Below, one piece after another: positions 1,059-19,332 of a stretch of DNA of 32,546 nt; within the stretch, counting starts at the first letter, position 1, and each line of letters begins with the position of its first letter. Source of the stretch: a virus; IMG/VR virus record IMGVR_UViG_3300040808_000925, positions 1 to 32,546 of that record. One strand, 5' to 3'. Below the pieces are notes generated by a model. That model did not search any database. It was not told the DNA's origin and saw nothing but the letters and a program-made list of their open reading frames with translations. Position numbers and translations under genes: made by a program.

Positions 1059-4000
1059 TTAATAGGTCATAAGACGTTGAAGACGGTCGCCCTCTTCGTC
1101 AGTCATGGTGGAGTAGAACTTTTGCGGTTTGTCTAGCTGGTAATTACCATTTTCAAGCTGAGTCTTCTTAAGACCAAGACCTTGAAGCTGGGTAGCAAAG
1201 GTAGCATCTTGATCGGCAAGCCGTTCAAATGCCATCTCGCGGTGTTTGTTCCAGATCTTACTAACGTTGTCATAGACCTTAGGACGTTCCGAACGGAAGT
1301 ATTCCCGATCAGGTCCAAGCCTACGATTACGCCAGTTATTAAGATCTTCTTGGAAATAGGGTTTCTTCATTTCCATGTCCATCTCAGACCGTAATCCAGA
1401 TTCAAACATGAAAGTTCGAATTTGATTCTTTTGATCTGCGTTAAGACGAAGGCCGGTCTTGTCCCGATCAAGATCATCCTTCCACTTGTAATCAATATCA
1501 GCCAGCATATCAATAACTGGATCTTTGATCTGTGTGTTGATCTCAAAGGGAACGTTGGCATTCCACAAGCCTCCGTTGGGGTTCTTCATCGGCTTACCGG
1601 TAAAGACACTGATCATCGCCGGGCGGAAGTTACGATAAACAGGAATGGCAGCTTGAAGGCTACGATCAAATTCATCGTTGTATTCACGCAGATATGGGTC
1701 AAGAGTGTTACCAATACCACGACGCAACGAACCAAGAGGGAAGGCGTTATTCAACGTAGACAACAGTCCACGCACAGCCTTTTCACTTGTCCAGTTTTCG
1801 GGGTCTGCCATGTCTGCCATAGCAGCAATACCCGAAAAATAAGACTTCTCAGTAAAGGAAGCAACAGTACTAAGGACTGCCATGCCCATAAACTTATCAG
1901 CAAAGTCCTCACGGAATCCATAGGTTTGAACAACCCGAGCCAGGTTTGCACTAATGGCAATAAGGTTCGACAGTGGTTCCACCATATTATAAGAAATATA
2001 GTTATCACCAAACCGCAAAGACCTAGGCTGGATATTCAGCTCCTTCCATCGCTTGAACTCTTCCTTTTCGGTCACTGGATTGGGCCAGTCACCAGTGATC
2101 ATGTTGTTGGAAGCCATCATATAGGCGGCACCCATTGACATCAAACCAATAGCTTGACGGCCTTCATACTCAGCAGCCAACAGCGGATCACCTGACTTCA
2201 TAGCCTTCTGGTAATTCCGAGAAAGCATACTGGTCAAAGGAAGGTGTTCTGCTTGATAAGCAAGAATGTTTGCCGGAGTCCGAATAAACGGAACAACCAG
2301 CTTGCCACCAGGAACCAACTCAACAAAGCGAGAGAAAGTATTGACAAGTTCACCAGGGTCAGATTGGAACGTACCAATGTCGGCATATTCTTGAAGGGCT
2401 TTACTCTTGATAACGCCTGTCTGTGGATCAATGGCGTTCGAGTATTCCTTAAGCTTGGCTTCCATAACACCCTTCCAATTAGAGGGGTTTTCTTGGTATG
2501 CCTTATATGCTGCTAGTTCGTTAATACGTTGACGGACAAGGATGGTTTTAAAGTAATCATCCATACCCATCATGATCTTTTCTGGTACGGCAAAGTACTC
2601 AGCCATACGGTAGTGCCACTTAAGGTGACCAACAGCGCGTTGTTCTCCAGCAGTCTGCGCGGTCTTCTCAAGGTTCTCCAGCATTGCCAGGGTTTCTGTC
2701 CGCTGCATAAATTGCTTTGGAGTAGCCTGGATAGGAATGCCAGTACGCATGGTCTGACGAGCAACCTTCCACGCCTCACCCATGCCAGTAATAATGGAGC
2801 TATAACCGGCAAGACCAGCGTTGATCAAAGCCTTATCACCAGTAAAAGCACCACGCAGAGCAATGCTGGTAGGAGCCTCAACCAAGCGGTAGAACGTACC
2901 ACCGTTACGGAATAGGGTTTTAGCACCAGAAAGGATGGAGTTATAGAAGTTCCGAGTACCAATCCGAAGGGCAATAGCACGAGCCGTAGCACCGAAGCTA
3001 ATCGCCTTAGACGGGTCACCACCGGCCAATACCATGGCTCTGGTAAGCGTCCGCATCTTTTCAAGACCATCGGCATCACCTCTACGATAGGCATCCTTTG
3101 CTTCTTGTGCAAACTTACGCAAGCGAGCAAGGGTAACCATGGCATCCTCGTCTCCTTCTTCCTTTGCCATATATTGAAGTGCTTCCCGTGCGGAAACATT
3201 ATCAACAAGACTCAGACGAAGGGCATTAAGGCTGCCACCAAGGAATTGGGTTCCGGTTTTATAGAACTCAAGCAGACCAATAAAGCGGTCAGTCAGGCGT
3301 TCGTAATAGTTAAAGTTAGCGATCTGACGGGTGTCTGCTTCTTCTGCCAGCTGGGACAGACGGTAAAGCTCATTAGACCAGTCAGCAATGATTGCCTTAG
3401 AAGCAATGATGGTTTCCGCAGTAGCACCAAGGGTGCCTCGCTTAGAACCAACAATAACCTCACCGGACTCAGACATCAAACGCTTAACCAGATCACCCTC
3501 AGTAGCACTAAAGATGTCATCAAAAGACTTGATACCATCAAGGAAACCTTGGTAAATCTTGGCTGCGTTTTCCAAGACCTGTCCAGTGGTTAGTCCACTC
3601 TCCTTAGAAATACGAAGAACGTCAACGTCCTTTTCATACTTCTGAAGAATCTTCTTTGCACCACCTTCAATGCCAGCACTCTTGACAGCAGATTCAGTAA
3701 GCACACGACCAGAAGCCGCATGAATGCTCACCTTACCCTTACCAGGAATGCCTTCTTCCATCAGTATTTGGTTTGATGCAACATTGTTGATGTCTTCGGC
3801 CTTGTCAACCCGGCTGTTTTCAAAGTCGAATTGCTTGGTAGAAGGGTCAGCAATGTTTTCCATCTGAGTGGAAAGGTCCTGCTTTCTTTGACGAAGGTTT
3901 TCTAGTTCTTCGGTAAGCTTAGCTGCATCCTCAGGAGACGCCTCATTGATACGCATCTGTACGCGCATCATTTCTTCGTCTGCTTCGTTGGCCTGATCAC

Positions 4001-5087
4001 TCAGGGCCTTTAGCATATTGCCGTCTTCTGTCTTAGAAACTTTGGCATATTCGCCCAGCTCATCCGACAGTTTGGCAATTTCATTGACACCAGCAGTAAC
4101 GGCTTCTTCAGGAGTAGCTCCTTTTTTAATAAGTTTGCGAGCAACACGATAGCCGCCAGCAAGAGCCGAAATGCCTACATTAAAAACAGGGCCAAGCATC
4201 AGACCTTCGCCTGCGCTCTTGACACGGTTCATCCAAGGGTCACCGTATTTGTCAGTAGCCAAGCCAAAGATAAAAGCCTCACGGTAGTTCTCAGGAACCA
4301 AGTCCTTGATTACTTCCATCATGTTGCCATCTTTGGCATCAGTAAGAAGAAAGTCAGAAATAGCACCAGGGACAGCCCCTTCAAGGATAGCTCGCTTACC
4401 TTTAGCAGCAAGCCACTGAGCACCCTTGAGATCCTTTGGCATAGGCTTAGTACCTAGTTTCGCACCAGGAACATTACGCAATTGCCGAGCCATAATGACA
4501 AAGCTCAGGATGCGCTCAGCAGCGACACCGGCGTCCGTCTTAGGCGAATTGATAAGCTGGGTATATGCCCGCTTATACGCCTCGTCCGTAGGCTTAAGAC
4601 CTTTGTTTACGGTTTGATCAAGATAGACCTGATAGCCAAGATCAATAGCACCTTCAATAGGCTTAGCAAAAGCACCAGCAATAGCAGTTGTGGCTTCATA
4701 AGCAAGACCCTGTTGGATCTGTTCATCCGCCTCCTTGTACTTTTGCTGGGTTTCTGTCCTAGCTTGTTGACGTTCTTGAGCAATCTGTTCTGGGGTCTTA
4801 CGATCACCAGTCAAGTTATCCAGCATATCAGACGCTGGAATGTAGATGTTTTCTTCCATCCACTTGGAAACACCCTCTAGGGGCGCACCAGGCTGTGGTT
4901 GTTGGGGAAGAGGACTAACAAGTTGCTGTTGGAACTGCTGTTCTTTTTGTTGCGTTTCTTCTTGTTGTTGTTGCTGTTGAGCAGCTGCTTCAAGACGAAC
5001 TTGTTCTTGACGCTTTTGATAGTCTTCTTCTTGAAGAGCACGCAGCTTTTCAGTATCAACAAGGGGAAAGGAATCAGGACTTGCCAT
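1059..5087 (-). CDS. Internal virion protein, T7 gp16-like (DNA-ejection core protein)
   Basis: At 1342 residues this is the largest gene in the window and is close in size to T7 gp16 (1318). In T7, gp16 sits in the internal core and is ejected into the cell to form part of the DNA channel. Identification rests on position (between the gp15-like and tail-fibre genes) and size. The N-terminal 75 residues are rich in Gln and Glu and look disordered or coiled. Residues around 340-430 are strongly charged and probably coiled coil. I see no lytic transglycosylase motif at the N-terminus, unlike T7 gp16. The ATG at 5087 follows an A-rich leader with GGAG about 15 bases upstream, just downstream of an intrinsic terminator. 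Confidence 0.85.
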   Translation of the reverse strand: MASPDSFPLVDTEKLRALQEEDYQKRQEQVRLEAAAQQQQQQEETQQKEQQFQQQLVSPLPQQPQPGAPLEGVSKWMEENIYIPASDMLDNLTGDRKTPEQIAQERQQARTETQQKYKEADEQIQQGLAYEATTAIAGAFAKPIEGAIDLGYQVYLDQTVNKGLKPTDEAYKRAYTQLINSPKTDAGVAAERILSFVIMARQLRNVPGAKLGTKPMPKDLKGAQWLAAKGKRAILEGAVPGAISDFLLTDAKDGNMMEVIKDLVPENYREAFIFGLATDKYGDPWMNRVKSAGEGLMLGPVFNVGISALAGGYRVARKLIKKGATPEEAVTAGVNEIAKLSDELGEYAKVSKTEDGNMLKALSDQANEADEEMMRVQMRINEASPEDAAKLTEELENLRQRKQDLSTQMENIADPSTKQFDFENSRVDKAEDINNVASNQILMEEGIPGKGKVSIHAASGRVLTESAVKSAGIEGGAKKILQKYEKDVDVLRISKESGLTTGQVLENAAKIYQGFLDGIKSFDDIFSATEGDLVKRLMSESGEVIVGSKRGTLGATAETIIASKAIIADWSNELYRLSQLAEEADTRQIANFNYYERLTDRFIGLLEFYKTGTQFLGGSLNALRLSLVDNVSAREALQYMAKEEGDEDAMVTLARLRKFAQEAKDAYRRGDADGLEKMRTLTRAMVLAGGDPSKAISFGATARAIALRIGTRNFYNSILSGAKTLFRNGGTFYRLVEAPTSIALRGAFTGDKALINAGLAGYSSIITGMGEAWKVARQTMRTGIPIQATPKQFMQRTETLAMLENLEKTAQTAGEQRAVGHLKWHYRMAEYFAVPEKIMMGMDDYFKTILVRQRINELAAYKAYQENPSNWKGVMEAKLKEYSNAIDPQTGVIKSKALQEYADIGTFQSDPGELVNTFSRFVELVPGGKLVVPFIRTPANILAYQAEHLPLTSMLSRNYQKAMKSGDPLLAAEYEGRQAIGLMSMGAAYMMASNNMITGDWPNPVTEKEEFKRWKELNIQPRSLRFGDNYISYNMVEPLSNLIAISANLARVVQTYGFREDFADKFMGMAVLSTVASFTEKSYFSGIAAMADMADPENWTSEKAVRGLLSTLNNAFPLGSLRRGIGNTLDPYLREYNDEFDRSLQAAIPVYRNFRPAMISVFTGKPMKNPNGGLWNANVPFEINTQIKDPVIDMLADIDYKWKDDLDRDKTGLRLNADQKNQIRTFMFESGLRSEMDMEMKKPYFQEDLNNWRNRRLGPDREYFRSERPKVYDNVSKIWNKHREMAFERLADQDATFATQLQGLGLKKTQLENGNYQLDKPQKFYSTMTDEEGDRLQRLMTY

Positions 5088-5117: not shown

Positions 5118-5156
5118 AAAAAAAGGAAAGACCCCAATCCGCAGAAGAGGGTCTTT
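5118..5156 (-). terminator. Intrinsic terminator between gp15-like and gp16-like genes
   Basis: On the minus strand an 8-bp stem AAAGACCC/GGGTCTTT (arms 5149-5156 and 5127-5134) encloses a 14-base loop and is followed by CC and a seven-T run (5118-5124). The upstream arm touches the stop codon of the gp15-like gene. The stem is perfect, so attenuation of the last virion genes is likely, although read-through must occur unless a promoter follows. Confidence 0.7.
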
Positions 5157-7807
5157 TAATATCCAAAGGTAGCGCCAATCCTACGACGTAAACGATCAAA
5201 GTTACGATAGGGTTTCATACTGCCGCTACCACGAGGAGCTGGAGCAAGAAAATCAATACTAGCAATGGTTCCATCCGCAGATCGGACATTACCAGTACCG
5301 CCTTGGATACCAACTAATTGACCAGCAGAAACCTGTTGACCAATGGTAAGTGGAGAGCGAGATGCAAGGTGGGCATAAAGAACATCAACCTGTTCGCCAG
5401 TTTCTGGATCAGTGGATTCAATCACCACATAATTACCATAACCAGACTCATAGGAAATGTCTTTAACACGGCCATCCATAACTACGGGAAATTGCTTATC
5501 TTCAAAGAAGATGTCAAGGCCGGGTTGTCCACGTTTTCCTGGAACATAATCTTCATAAGTCACAGAACTAACCTGTGCTTTAAAGCTTTCCAGTTGGCGG
5601 ATAGGTTGCAAGGGAAGCTGTTGTTGCGCCTTAAGACGCGCCAGTTCCCGTTCCAATTGCCGACGTTGCTCAGGAGCGGTACGAGGGTTAGCAAGAGCAT
5701 TAGCAATGCGAGGGCTGACTTTCTTGTTTTCAAGATAGTTGTTAGCGCCCTGACCAAGTTCTGCTTCGTTGTACTCCATGTCATACTGAGCAGCCTGACG
5801 ACGCAGATATTCCGGGACCGAAACACCCGCAGTCTGTGCTGCAAACTGGACATCAGAAGGAACCTGTCCACCATTACGGAGTACTTCCATAGAAAGCGAA
5901 ATACGCTCAGGACTAAGGACAACATCCTTAACAGCAGAGGTGGTCTTAGGAAGACGCTCTAGAGCCGTGTTAACAAGGTCTAGACCCGTGCCAGCTTTAC
6001 TCGTATTGGTAGAAGCAGTAGCCCGAGAAAGGCGATCACTTTGAGGAGTAGAGTGGAATTTAACTTGGGTAACGCCACCACGAGGGCCTTTCTGAATTTG
6101 AACAAACTCAGGCAGCAGTGATTTAACTGCGGCATCAAAGTCCCGTTGAGCGTCTAGTGCGGTGTATTCCTTGCCAGCTGCTCGTGCCTTTGCGGCGTTA
6201 TTAAGAACAACAGCTTCTGCAAGACCAACGATAGCATTGACGGCACCTTGACTCTTCTCAACAAAAGCCTCAGGAACATTACCGACTTGATCTTTGGTAA
6301 CCTCACGGATAGCACCGCGAACAAGGTTCTGACGATTTCCAGGAAGAATGTCTTTGGCTTCTTGCTCAGAGGCGAATCGCTGTGATCCACGCTCATAAGC
6401 ATCAGAAGAAATATAACCAGCTGCCTTTAGAGCTGCCAGTTCGCCAAGACTTGTAGCAGAATCAACAAGAGCCTGTTCCCGACCGGGGTTCCAGTTCGGA
6501 CCACGATTCTGAAGACGATCAATCTCAGCAAGAACACCAGAAGTAGGATTCTTAGTCCGTAACTCCTCAAGGCGTCTCATTGCCTCGTTATAGGTTGCCT
6601 TACTTGGGTTGGCATAGAAGACCTTAGTGATGCCTTCTGCTTCGTCATCGACAACAGCATCAGCTTCTGCTTTCTTTTTATCGCTGGTTTGATCCAGGAA
6701 CGTAGCAAGATCCGTCAGGTCATAACGGTCTCCATAAGTACCAAGAGATGGTTTGTCTGGATTAAGGCCAGCCTTACGGTACTCATTAAACATACGATTG
6801 GCCAAAGCAAGATCTTCACTTGCCGTGACACGAATCATATGCGTCATCATATCATGAGTTTCTTCGTTTGCCTTAGTGCGGTCACCACCGTAATAATCGG
6901 TTGCCCACTTATTAAGACGAAGAATCTCTTGTTGTGCGGTTTGAGGATTGGCAAAGTTATTCTTACCAGCATAGATCTCAGCTCGTTTATCTTCGAGTTG
7001 ATTACTACGCCGAACCTCAATGATGTCTTGCATCTTCTGGCCGAGCAGCTCGCCCCTGGCACGAACCATAATGGGGGTTACATGTTCAGCAAGAATCACA
7101 GGATTAAGTTGGTTAAGACCAGATGTCTGAAGAAACTTCTGGGTTCCAACTTCCCACACAGCTTCCAGCTGTTCTCGCGTCTTAGCCGTTCTCGGCGTAA
7201 ACGTTTGAACCTGGCCGTTTACAGTAGTTTGGATGGGTTCGTCACTTGCGAGAAACGCACTAAAGAAGGAACTGATCGAACCAGCACCCATCATTGCCTT
7301 GCCGACAGCCTGACCGTAGCCACGCCAACCGCCAACGGCTTTGCTTTCTTGATAAAGACTTTCAGCAAGAGCAGGATCTTGTTTTTCTACCTCAGCAATG
7401 GCTTGGACTTCTGCCTCGTTTGCCTTTTCTAGATAGTCTCGATCCTGTTCGTATTTTTCAAGCAGCTTAGGATTCAGCTCAGTCTTGCCATTAAGGATGT
7501 CGGCAATACCAAGGTTCTTCTGATTCTCGTTATACTCCTTTTGCTTCTCGACAACAAACTTAGAAAGCGTCTCGCTAAAGTTAACAAGAGCTTCGGTGTT
7601 CTCTTGACCAAGAGCATCAAAGTCGCGGCTAAGCTGACTCAGTTGATTGGAGTATTGATTGGCAGCTTCTCCAGCTTTTTGAATACGATCAGAAGCTGCT
7701 TGACCTAAAGATTTGCTAGGGTCATAGATTTGTTGGCCTCGAAAGCCGCGTTGGATTTCCCGACCCTCTAGCTGAACGCGGCGGCCCTTTGATTGATAAA
7801 TTGCCAT
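5156..7807 (-). CDS. Internal virion protein, T7 gp15-like, with C-terminal M23-peptidase-like domain
   Basis: This 883-residue protein lies between the gp14- and gp16-like genes, where T7 has gp15 (747 residues), a core protein ejected with the DNA. Most of it is long, charged and helical. The last ~125 residues resemble an M23 (LytM/lysostaphin) fold: a QPGLD motif (761-765) in the place of HxxxD, then GYGNYVVIE, then YAHL with His813, then a GQQVSAGQLVG segment, then SID (850-852) where M23 enzymes have HxH. So the Asp and the YAHL His are kept, but the first metal His is Gln and the final HxH is S-I-D. The domain may be a peptidoglycan-binding or altered-metal relic. The ATG at 7807 follows the gp14-like stop by six bases. 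Virion role: confident; enzyme activity: doubtful. Confidence 0.83.
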   Translation of the reverse strand: MAIYQSKGRRVQLEGREIQRGFRGQQIYDPSKSLGQAASDRIQKAGEAANQYSNQLSQLSRDFDALGQENTEALVNFSETLSKFVVEKQKEYNENQKNLGIADILNGKTELNPKLLEKYEQDRDYLEKANEAEVQAIAEVEKQDPALAESLYQESKAVGGWRGYGQAVGKAMMGAGSISSFFSAFLASDEPIQTTVNGQVQTFTPRTAKTREQLEAVWEVGTQKFLQTSGLNQLNPVILAEHVTPIMVRARGELLGQKMQDIIEVRRSNQLEDKRAEIYAGKNNFANPQTAQQEILRLNKWATDYYGGDRTKANEETHDMMTHMIRVTASEDLALANRMFNEYRKAGLNPDKPSLGTYGDRYDLTDLATFLDQTSDKKKAEADAVVDDEAEGITKVFYANPSKATYNEAMRRLEELRTKNPTSGVLAEIDRLQNRGPNWNPGREQALVDSATSLGELAALKAAGYISSDAYERGSQRFASEQEAKDILPGNRQNLVRGAIREVTKDQVGNVPEAFVEKSQGAVNAIVGLAEAVVLNNAAKARAAGKEYTALDAQRDFDAAVKSLLPEFVQIQKGPRGGVTQVKFHSTPQSDRLSRATASTNTSKAGTGLDLVNTALERLPKTTSAVKDVVLSPERISLSMEVLRNGGQVPSDVQFAAQTAGVSVPEYLRRQAAQYDMEYNEAELGQGANNYLENKKVSPRIANALANPRTAPEQRRQLERELARLKAQQQLPLQPIRQLESFKAQVSSVTYEDYVPGKRGQPGLDIFFEDKQFPVVMDGRVKDISYESGYGNYVVIESTDPETGEQVDVLYAHLASRSPLTIGQQVSAGQLVGIQGGTGNVRSADGTIASIDFLAPAPRGSGSMKPYRNFDRLRRRIGATFGY

Positions 7808-17182: not shown

Positions 17183-17914
17183 TTAGCCGTATTGTGGAAG
17201 GTCAACGTTACTTGCCTCGAAAAAGGCAGGCATTCTGGCTCTTTGCGTGTCCTTAAGACCGGGGGCCTTACCACGCTCATAGAGGGAATCGGATTGATTC
17301 ATCCAGAAGTCTTTGTCCAAGTACTTGTTTTCATTGGACGAAAGAGAATCCATCACCCATCCAACAGTCGCTCGGCGTAAGCGATTGAGGCTTGATGTGG
17401 ACTTGAGGCCCAGCTCGGAGCAGACCATCGAGTGTATGGCGACGTGCGTTTGCTCGTCTCTGCTGATGTCTGCGGCTGTGCTGCGGATTCCGATGTCTCC
17501 ATTGAATCGGAAGAAGGGGAGGATGACGAAGAAGACACTGCGCTCAAGGATAGCTGCTTTCAGAATGGGATGCTCTGGTGCGTCTAGCCAAGCCTTGAGG
17601 ATGTGCTTTGCTTCATCTTCATGCTTCTGGTTTGCACCATGGGCATCAATGACATAGTTCAACGCCTGGTCATGACGCTCTTCATCCAATTGATTAGAAA
17701 GAAGAGCCTCTCGTAGACCAGGGGTGTTGGGTAGTTCGCGCTCAAGTCCCTGCTGAAGGAACTCTCGCACAGGAAGTTCTAGGTGGCGGAGGCCAAGGGC
17801 GCGTTTAAGTGCGTCCTCAGCCCCTTCAACCACCCGTCCCTTTTGAACAGCCAGAGGCGTCCATTTACGCTTCCGGCTGACAACTTGATCGTAAGGCGAC
17901 AGGATTTGGCTCAT
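17183..17914 (-). CDS. nrdB: Ribonucleotide reductase beta subunit, class I-like (ferritin-like)
   Basis: A 243-residue ferritin-like protein. The metal ligands can be placed: a first acid at Glu58 or Glu60, E78xxH81 (in LDEERHDQ), Glu124 (ILERSVFF) and E154xxH157 (SRDEQTHV). In standard class Ia enzymes the radical Tyr stands four residues after the first ligand His; here that residue is Leu85. The C-terminus VDLPQYG keeps a Tyr close to the end, where beta binds alpha and relays the radical. The protein is much shorter than E. coli NrdB (376). The ATG at 17914 overlaps the alpha stop (ATGA). A published reanalysis of the cyanophage P-SSP7 enzyme moved it from class II to class I on the basis of such a neighbour gene. 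Family: likely; radical chemistry: unknown. Confidence 0.82.
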   Translation of the reverse strand: MSQILSPYDQVVSRKRKWTPLAVQKGRVVEGAEDALKRALGLRHLELPVREFLQQGLERELPNTPGLREALLSNQLDEERHDQALNYVIDAHGANQKHEDEAKHILKAWLDAPEHPILKAAILERSVFFVILPFFRFNGDIGIRSTAADISRDEQTHVAIHSMVCSELGLKSTSSLNRLRRATVGWVMDSLSSNENKYLDKDFWMNQSDSLYERGKAPGLKDTQRARMPAFFEASNVDLPQYG

Positions 17915-19332
17915 TCTCCGCAGGGGATACAAATTTCGTTTTCTGGTTTGATTTTGGGACAGCCGCAATCAGGATCAACTTCTTCTTCCTCAAAGCCAAA
18001 GAGATCACGGAAATCCTCGTCAAGAGCGGCGAGGGCGTCATCCTTGGATTGAGTATCAGGCATCACCTGAAGGGAATAGTAAAGACTTGTCTGAGGAGAA
18101 TAGATCCACTCATAGATAAAGTCTCGGTCATAAGTCACAACATCAGACCAGCTGTTAAAGCTGTATCCATGGAAGAGCAGGGTGTTCTGGAAGAGACGGA
18201 TAATACCATCAGCCACTTCCTTGTAGGCATCCCAGCCCACCTCAGAGGCGATCTCTACATCCGGCGGGTAGTCATAAGACTGGACTCCGAAAGTCCCACT
18301 ATCCCTATCGACGTGACGACTGATAGGAGGGGCCAACTCTGGGGCAGCAGTATAGCCACGCAGGTCGATGTTGTTATAAGAGCAGGAAGCCGTAGGCGCG
18401 ATAGCAAACGCCCGGTCCATGTTGTGGAGTCGAGCAATCTGTGACGCAAGCTCAATGGCTTTTGCAAGTTCAGATACAAGTCGATATGCCGGAGTGTCCT
18501 CCGGTTGATGAGCATGGAATCTGGTTAGGGCGTTTCCAAACTCTTTATAAGTTACGCCGTTCTGGCAAAGGAAGTTAGCCAGACCAAGAATCCCAAGACC
18601 AACTTGTCGGTCAGTCTCGGGGGGAAGGTATTCACCAGTTTCCCCCACACCTGTTTTGGCGTGGAGGTCAATAAGACTGGTCATCCCTTCGGTAAACGCT
18701 TCAACAAGATCCTCGCGTTTGCAAGCACCAAGGTTGACATGCTGAAGCAAACAAGTGCCACGACTGCGGAGATACACCTCAAGGCATACATTGCCGTAGA
18801 TGCGATTCCCGAGAGAGTCATGGCGGATCTTGTTAAGCCAAATGTCGCCCTTTTTGATTCCTTCAATAGTGGCGTCAATCAGCTCATCGCTGGCATACTT
18901 GAGGAAGTTTTCATCAATATCAAGACAACGCTTGACCCAAGGCAACTCAGTACGAGAAGCATTGACAAACTCAAGTGCATCGCCATGCGTATAATCGAGG
19001 TGCAACACACACGCGCCGTTCTTGTAATGGCCGCCCCTACGAATTACTTCGTTAAGAGTAGAATAGATACGGCCAAAGGATACCGGACCAGAAGCGGTCA
19101 AGCCCTTACCATTTTCATGCCCCTTGGGGCGAAGCTTAGAAAGGTGAACGGCAACGCCTGCTCCATTCCGCAGGGCGTGGCTGACATAGCGCCAGCTGGC
19201 CTCGATACCTTCCGGCCCCTCCATGCTGTCATCTACAACAAAGACAGTACAGGACACCGGCAGGCGGGAGTCTGGGTTGTCAATCCAATTTTGAACACGG
19301 CCAGTGCGTGCAATCTTTTGAGGGGTGGACAT
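17911..19332 (-). CDS. nrdA: Ribonucleotide reductase alpha (catalytic) subunit, short cyanophage type
   Basis: A 473-residue enzyme that converts ribonucleotides to deoxyribonucleotides. Active-site features are Cys28 (RLPVSC), the N-x-C-x-E motif N181-V-C-L-E185, partner Cys194 (GTCLLQHVNLG), the phosphate-binding IAPTASCS near 311-318 and a C-terminal redox tail with CGC (456-458) and CIPC (468-471). A tandem tyrosine (SLYYSLQV, 418-419) matches the class I radical relay Tyr pair, which class II enzymes lack. There is no N-terminal ATP cone, so activity control is probably lost. It is far shorter than E. coli NrdA (761). It starts one base after the MazG-like gene and is followed by the beta subunit. 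It would supply dNTPs for phage DNA. Confidence 0.92.
   Translation of the reverse strand: MSTPQKIARTGRVQNWIDNPDSRLPVSCTVFVVDDSMEGPEGIEASWRYVSHALRNGAGVAVHLSKLRPKGHENGKGLTASGPVSFGRIYSTLNEVIRRGGHYKNGACVLHLDYTHGDALEFVNASRTELPWVKRCLDIDENFLKYASDELIDATIEGIKKGDIWLNKIRHDSLGNRIYGNVCLEVYLRSRGTCLLQHVNLGACKREDLVEAFTEGMTSLIDLHAKTGVGETGEYLPPETDRQVGLGILGLANFLCQNGVTYKEFGNALTRFHAHQPEDTPAYRLVSELAKAIELASQIARLHNMDRAFAIAPTASCSYNNIDLRGYTAAPELAPPISRHVDRDSGTFGVQSYDYPPDVEIASEVGWDAYKEVADGIIRLFQNTLLFHGYSFNSWSDVVTYDRDFIYEWIYSPQTSLYYSLQVMPDTQSKDDALAALDEDFRDLFGFEEEEVDPDCGCPKIKPENEICIPCGE

Follow-up and report, generated by a model that had tools for sequence, protein, structure and literature searches.

A degenerate M23/LytM domain with a conserved altered active site on the gp15-like ejection protein of a T7-like virus and its relatives

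The DNA analyzed here, referred to as the window, is the complete 32,546-nucleotide stretch of the viral record IMGVR_UViG_3300040808_000925. Its gene order is T7-like, with genes for nozzle, tube, scaffold, portal, RNA polymerase, primase-helicase and DNA polymerase. Between a gp14-like and a gp16-like gene, as in the T7 order, lies the ORF of a large internal virion protein (Table 1). We call this protein gp15-like because of its gene order; its body yielded no match in Pfam, in a PDB sequence search or to T7 gp15, and a PHROG annotated as "virion structural protein" matched only the bodies of the relatives L062 and L048. Homologous loci keep this gene position: of the 68 with enough upstream sequence for the neighbor to be judged, 67 have a nozzle gene or a gp14-like gene there. 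In the gp16-like protein, a Pfam search detected no wall-hydrolase family, in agreement with the original prediction that this protein carries no wall-degrading domain. Among phage records, the proteins of the ejection genes matched mainly Synechococcus and Prochlorococcus podoviruses, which suggests a cyanobacterial host for the virus, and the gp15-like protein is probably injected into that host. The window stops within the tail fiber gene, so that an endolysin could be encoded beyond it. A further ORF of 473 aa (17911-19332, minus strand) is ribonucleotide reductase-like, its best Pfam stretch covering about 100 of 523 profile positions.

Table 1. Genes and residues of the ejection protein locus in the window
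Feature	Position	Strand	Basis
gp14-like internal virion protein, 254 aa	7814..8578	minus	Pfam T7_gp14, 1.5e-14
gp15-like ejection (internal virion) protein, 883 aa	5156..7807	minus	ORF call; gene order
Degenerate M23/LytM domain, residues 741-883 (~140 residues)	5159..5587	minus	Pfam, AlphaFold2, Foldseek
Gln761, replaces the first zinc His of HxxxD	5525..5527	minus	Alignment with the His of intact M23
Asp765, zinc-ligand Asp of HxxxD, retained	5513..5515	minus	Invariant
His813 of YAHL, catalytic-type His, retained	5369..5371	minus	Invariant; equals His260 of LytM
Ile848-Ala849-Ser850, most likely equivalent to HxH, with neither His	5258..5266	minus	BLAST, MAFFT
Asp852, probably the acidic residue after HLHF, not a metal ligand	5252..5254	minus	BLAST, MAFFT; invariant
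gp16-like internal virion protein, 1342 aa, SLT not found	1059..5087	minus	PHROG 6651 (internal virion protein), E = 4e-124

The C-terminal domain of the gp15-like protein belongs to the M23 family by fold and by sequence, as had been read from its motif layout (GYGN at residues 789-792, YAHL with His813, GQQVSAGQLVG from residue 823). Pfam PF01551 (Peptidase_M23) matched residues 741-883 with an E-value of 5.1e-9 (36.6 bits, cut-off 28.7), and hhalign against intact M23 gave E = 3.6e-22. The AlphaFold2 model of the domain, built from 29 homologues (pLDDT 88.0, pTM 0.85), has the M23 fold, whose absence had been named in advance as evidence against the assignment. In a Foldseek search of the PDB, the best 19 matches were all M23/LytM structures (E down to 7e-6), the top matches including ShyA, LytU, NMB0315, the phage 2638A endolysin, EnvC (4bh5, 8c0j, 8tzl) and SpoIIQ. 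The top matches in the viral library BFVD were likewise M23/LytM.

In M23 peptidases, zinc is held by the His and Asp of the HxxxD motif and by the second His of HxH, while water is handled by the first His of HxH together with a His about 30 residues earlier (PMC9662197). The window domain retains Asp765 as well as His813, which precedes HxH by about 30 residues and is equivalent to His260 of LytM, the role of which is described in the same work (PMC9662197). The H(x)nD zinc motif is broken, since RGQPGLDI of the window pairs with RGHEGTDI of a LytM protein, placing Gln761 opposite the first zinc His, and an HxH motif is missing as well. All residues named in the original prediction were found at their numbers, but its assignment of HxH to residues 850-852 is probably wrong. 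BLAST with the intact M23 of an Acinetobacter phage set GTIASIDF opposite GTHLHFDY, and MAFFT alignments that included 21 intact M23 domains placed Ile848 at the first His of HxH under six of the seven settings; the other register (Ser850/Asp852) was returned by one MAFFT setting and by hhalign in global mode. Judged from these alignments, HxH most likely corresponds to Ile848-x-Ser850, two residues upstream of the predicted place. Asp852 would then match the acidic residue after HLHF and is probably no ligand. It is therefore doubtful that a Gln/Asp/Asp set binds a different metal, as had been considered: this needs Asp852 as a ligand, with which most alignments disagree, though the global hhalign alignment and one MAFFT setting agree. 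Neither register retains the first zinc His or either His of HxH, so the canonical zinc site is lost regardless. With its LytM fold and incomplete catalytic residues, the domain conforms to the description of a degenerate LytM factor, and we refer to it as pseudo-M23.

We compared 88 homologous loci, drawn from two scans of viral contigs and from two phage records. Gln761, Asp765, His813, Ile848, Ser850 and Asp852 were invariant in all 88. The DNA patterns of the first scan covered Asp765 alone among these six positions, whereas one of the two patterns of the second scan (QPGxD) spanned Gln761 and Asp765, and the count over 51 sequences is for this reason the cleaner measure of invariance. Close homologues with an intact HxxxD and HxH had been suggested as a test of the prediction; all close homologues carry the altered set, and intact M23 domains were seen in more distant phages only. 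In bacterial genomes, all relatives found were M23 domains of the ordinary kind, most of them with their motifs intact, and a search for closer intact relatives starting from the Acinetobacter-phage protein found none. In a tree, one branch holds all sampled pseudo-M23 sequences (support 100/97), which is consistent with a single origin, several branches being long and the bootstrap not settled.

The domain is under strong purifying selection. Its median dN/dS was 0.23 (718 pairs from 70 distinct domain sequences), and across the same 70 sequences Ser850 is encoded by all six Ser codons and Gln761 by both CAA and CAG. Between the window and L062 the domain is 72% identical, compared to 30% for the body of the protein; between the window and phage S-CBP4 it is 66% identical, while the rest of gp15 cannot be aligned.

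A wall glycosidase lies directly upstream of the pseudo-M23 in about half to two thirds of the full-length relatives. In 34 of 73 full-length members this is an SLT domain with its catalytic Glu kept; in 11 it is an insert with weak likeness to lambda lysozyme (hhalign E = 7e-5, probability 63%), which is probably lambda-lysozyme-like; and a single member (L074) combines a glucosaminidase with the pseudo-M23. No glycosidase was detected before the domain in 24 members, among them the window type. The insert spans about residues 735-860 in L062 (it also occurs in L048, L049 and L064-L072), shows GxYQ and QD motifs and is absent from the window protein; a PDB search with the L062 and L049 inserts returned nothing useful. 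Two extensions behind the pseudo-M23 were also seen. L050 (4667-7843) has a DPBB stretch, similar to RlpA-like lytic transglycosylases and below the Pfam cut-off, and the gp15-position protein of S-CBP2 (L002) continues for about 200 residues (~850-1051) that were not seen in other members.

In three of the 73 members (L094, 6104-7414; L046, 6104-7414; L095, 6095-7414), a lambda-type lysozyme (E = 3e-19 to PDB 1am7) is fused to the pseudo-M23 in a short protein of 437-440 aa. These fusions belong to another virus type, on whose contigs (34-78 kb) a match to the T7-type nozzle was not found. The pseudo-M23 of the 437-aa fusion is 72% identical to that of S-CBP4.

Eight near-complete relatives were searched for further wall enzymes. 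GH24 and Amidase_2 were found in none of them, SLT was found on gp15 only, and the members of the window's own subgroup (G001-G004, 41-45 kb) had no SLT, GH24 or Amidase_2. That an intact M23 is encoded elsewhere in the same phage can be ruled out for these relatives, as the single M23 match in each of the eight was the pseudo-M23 itself.

In other cyanophages, the M23 domain on the equivalent protein is intact or, it appears, circularly permuted. HxGxD and HxH are intact in S-SRP01, A-4L, PP and Pf-WMP4 (4/4). In S-SRP01 (L250), the gp15-position protein consists of a body, which is homologous to the body of L074, a glucosaminidase and an intact C-terminal M23. HEGND and HxH are also kept in 16 further S-SRP01-like loci (L251-L266), one of which (L258) shows a different lysozyme-like stretch ahead of its intact M23. 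In A-4L, PP and Pf-WMP4 the intact M23 stops short of the very end of the protein. The C-terminal domain of S-CBP1, DSL-LC07 and P60 has its motifs in swapped order, GPHLD followed by HGID and then FLHG, with GAHLD in S-CBP1 and FGVD and FVHG in P60 as variants. Against S-CBP1, the M23 profile aligned as two separate segments with their order exchanged, the pattern expected from a circular permutation, and Pfam gave 0.04 for the native and 0.0078 for the rotated sequence. Foldseek returned no match for the S-CBP1 domain model (pLDDT 91), which is to be expected because Foldseek follows chain order. We regard a circularly permuted M23 as probable for this type. HLD was invariant in 82 sequences of the swapped-order C-terminal domain, which occurs at L163 (2733-3179), L165 (5581-6030), the C-terminus of P60 gp33 (L159) and L167-L246. 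P60 and Syn5 gave weak lysozyme-like matches, S-CBP3 has an SLT domain, and the equivalent protein of P-SSP7 had no wall domain match.

We propose that the pseudo-M23 is a LytM fold that has lost its zinc site and is kept as a ligand-binding module gripping the cell wall, a reading to which we assign a probability of roughly 0.6. The identical loss of the site in dozens of related viruses suggests that a grip on the wall, and not a cutter, has been kept, and the known use of degenerate M23 folds for binding rather than cutting supports this (PMC9662197). A dead enzyme that binds peptidoglycan had been one of the two options of the original prediction; the invariant altered site in 88 loci and the usual glycosidase neighbor speak for it, and the binding itself is what we infer from them. 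After ejection of the gp15-like protein into the periplasm, the emptied LytM groove would grip peptidoglycan, most simply its stem peptides, and thereby may hold the periplasmic tube at the wall. In relatives with an adjoining SLT, glucosaminidase or lysozyme domain, the pseudo-M23 might aim this enzyme, while in the window's subgroup it could be an anchor alone or the partner of an enzyme not detected here. Three observations argue against an anchor: the degenerate LytM proteins of known role, EnvC and NlpD, bind and activate amidases and do not anchor to the wall (PMC9662197), the window's subgroup has no glycosidase in cis to aim and its near-complete relatives showed no SLT, GH24 or Amidase_2 elsewhere, and the invariance of Asp765 and His813 exceeds what a plain binding groove strictly needs.

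Wall contact would be unnecessary if the domain were a structural component, of virion or ejectosome, that docks gp15 to gp16, gp14 or the portal. Such a fixed protein partner could account for the strong conservation, and the domain does reside on the gp15-position protein in nearly all loci. However, the neighboring gp14-like and gp16-like proteins have diverged so far that they often escape detection, whereas the domain remains 66% identical, and it is missing from many of the related ejection proteins, such as those of P-SSP7 and Syn5. The best argument for wall contact and against a fixed dock inside T7-like virions comes from the lambda-lysozyme fusion, in which the same domain ends a 437-aa protein on contigs without a nozzle match. 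We consider a purely structural role unlikely.

The groove could also be a purpose-built effector, by which the window's subgroup opens the wall without a recognizable hydrolase of its own, either through recruitment and activation of a host amidase or through new chemistry of the Gln/Asp/His/Ser residues. We give this only a low probability as a whole. In its first form, the dead groove would bind and switch on a host amidase in the manner described for EnvC and NlpD (PMC9662197), so that the wall would be opened at the site of injection by an enzyme of the host. This would account for the subgroups without their own glycosidase, and in the window's subgroup, where no SLT, GH24 or Amidase_2 but only the dead M23 was found, an anchor alone and amidase activation are both possible. 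EnvC is among the best fold matches, but the match concerns the general fold only, and most relatives bring their own glycosidase in cis; activation of a host amidase appears rather improbable to us. The second form, a rebuilt site of Gln761, Asp765, His813 and Ser850, with or without Asp852, that is still catalytic with another metal or in a Ser-His-Asp arrangement, we regard as very improbable. Asp765, His813, Ser850 and Asp852 are indeed invariant and located at or next to M23 zinc-site positions, but, whichever register applies, HxH no longer has its water-activating His. We know of no M23 peptidase that works through such a site. Finally, the altered residues in 88 of 88 loci rule out a local mutation or sequencing error, and the many synonymous codons, together with the domain being the best conserved part of the protein, rule out a drifting relic of a dead peptidase; only the loss of the ligands speaks for these two explanations, which jointly have a negligible chance.

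Little is known of how short-tailed phages get through the cyanobacterial wall. At the C-terminus of their gp15-type proteins, LytM-fold domains occur in intact, dead and apparently permuted forms beside exchangeable glycosidases. If the dead version binds peptidoglycan, it would count as a new wall-binding domain of phages, for which the isolates S-CBP4 and S-CBP2 exist, and the "peptidase" labels on such proteins would need correcting. If it activates a host amidase, this would represent a new infection strategy.

M23 domains on ejection proteins are already known; the conserved degenerate form is new. Our search of an open-access library turned up no description of a dead but conserved M23 on the ejection protein of a phage. 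The same pseudo-M23, altered residues included, is present in the gp15-position proteins of S-CBP4 (UniProt M1PXW6) and S-CBP2 (A0A096VL19). In S-CBP4 it directly follows an SLT domain, which is absent from the window protein. UniProt names both as SLT-domain and M23ase-core proteins; we found no report of their degenerate site, and the terms transglycosylase, peptidase and lysozyme are absent from a paper on the comparative genomics of estuarine cyanopodoviruses that includes S-CBP4 (PMC4646655). In S-SRP01, A-4L, PP and Pf-WMP4, the M23 lies between the gp14-like and gp16-like genes as in the window but with intact motifs, and the A-4L group has been published under the label "internal protein-M23-peptidase" (PMC6129581).

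T7 carries its wall-active lytic transglycosylase on the N-terminus of gp16 (PMC8954989), whereas the wall-type domain of the window is on the gp15-like protein. The location of the wall contact on gp15 instead of gp16 was thus correctly predicted, but the shift is not new, since many cyanopodovirus gp15-type proteins carry SLT, glucosaminidase or intact M23 domains and lysozyme-like domains have been described on the gp15 equivalent as well as on the gp16 equivalent in a study of the ejectosome of Pectobacterium phage PhiM1 (PMC11440229). The wall domains of T7 and PhiM1 are glycosidases presumed to be active, while that of the window is an M23. EnvC/NlpD, Csd2 and SpoIIQ share with the window domain a LytM fold with an incomplete zinc site and are used for binding and not for cutting (PMC9662197). 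Those proteins are cellular, acting in division, shape and sporulation, whereas the window domain is part of a virion protein and has its own fixed set of replacements.
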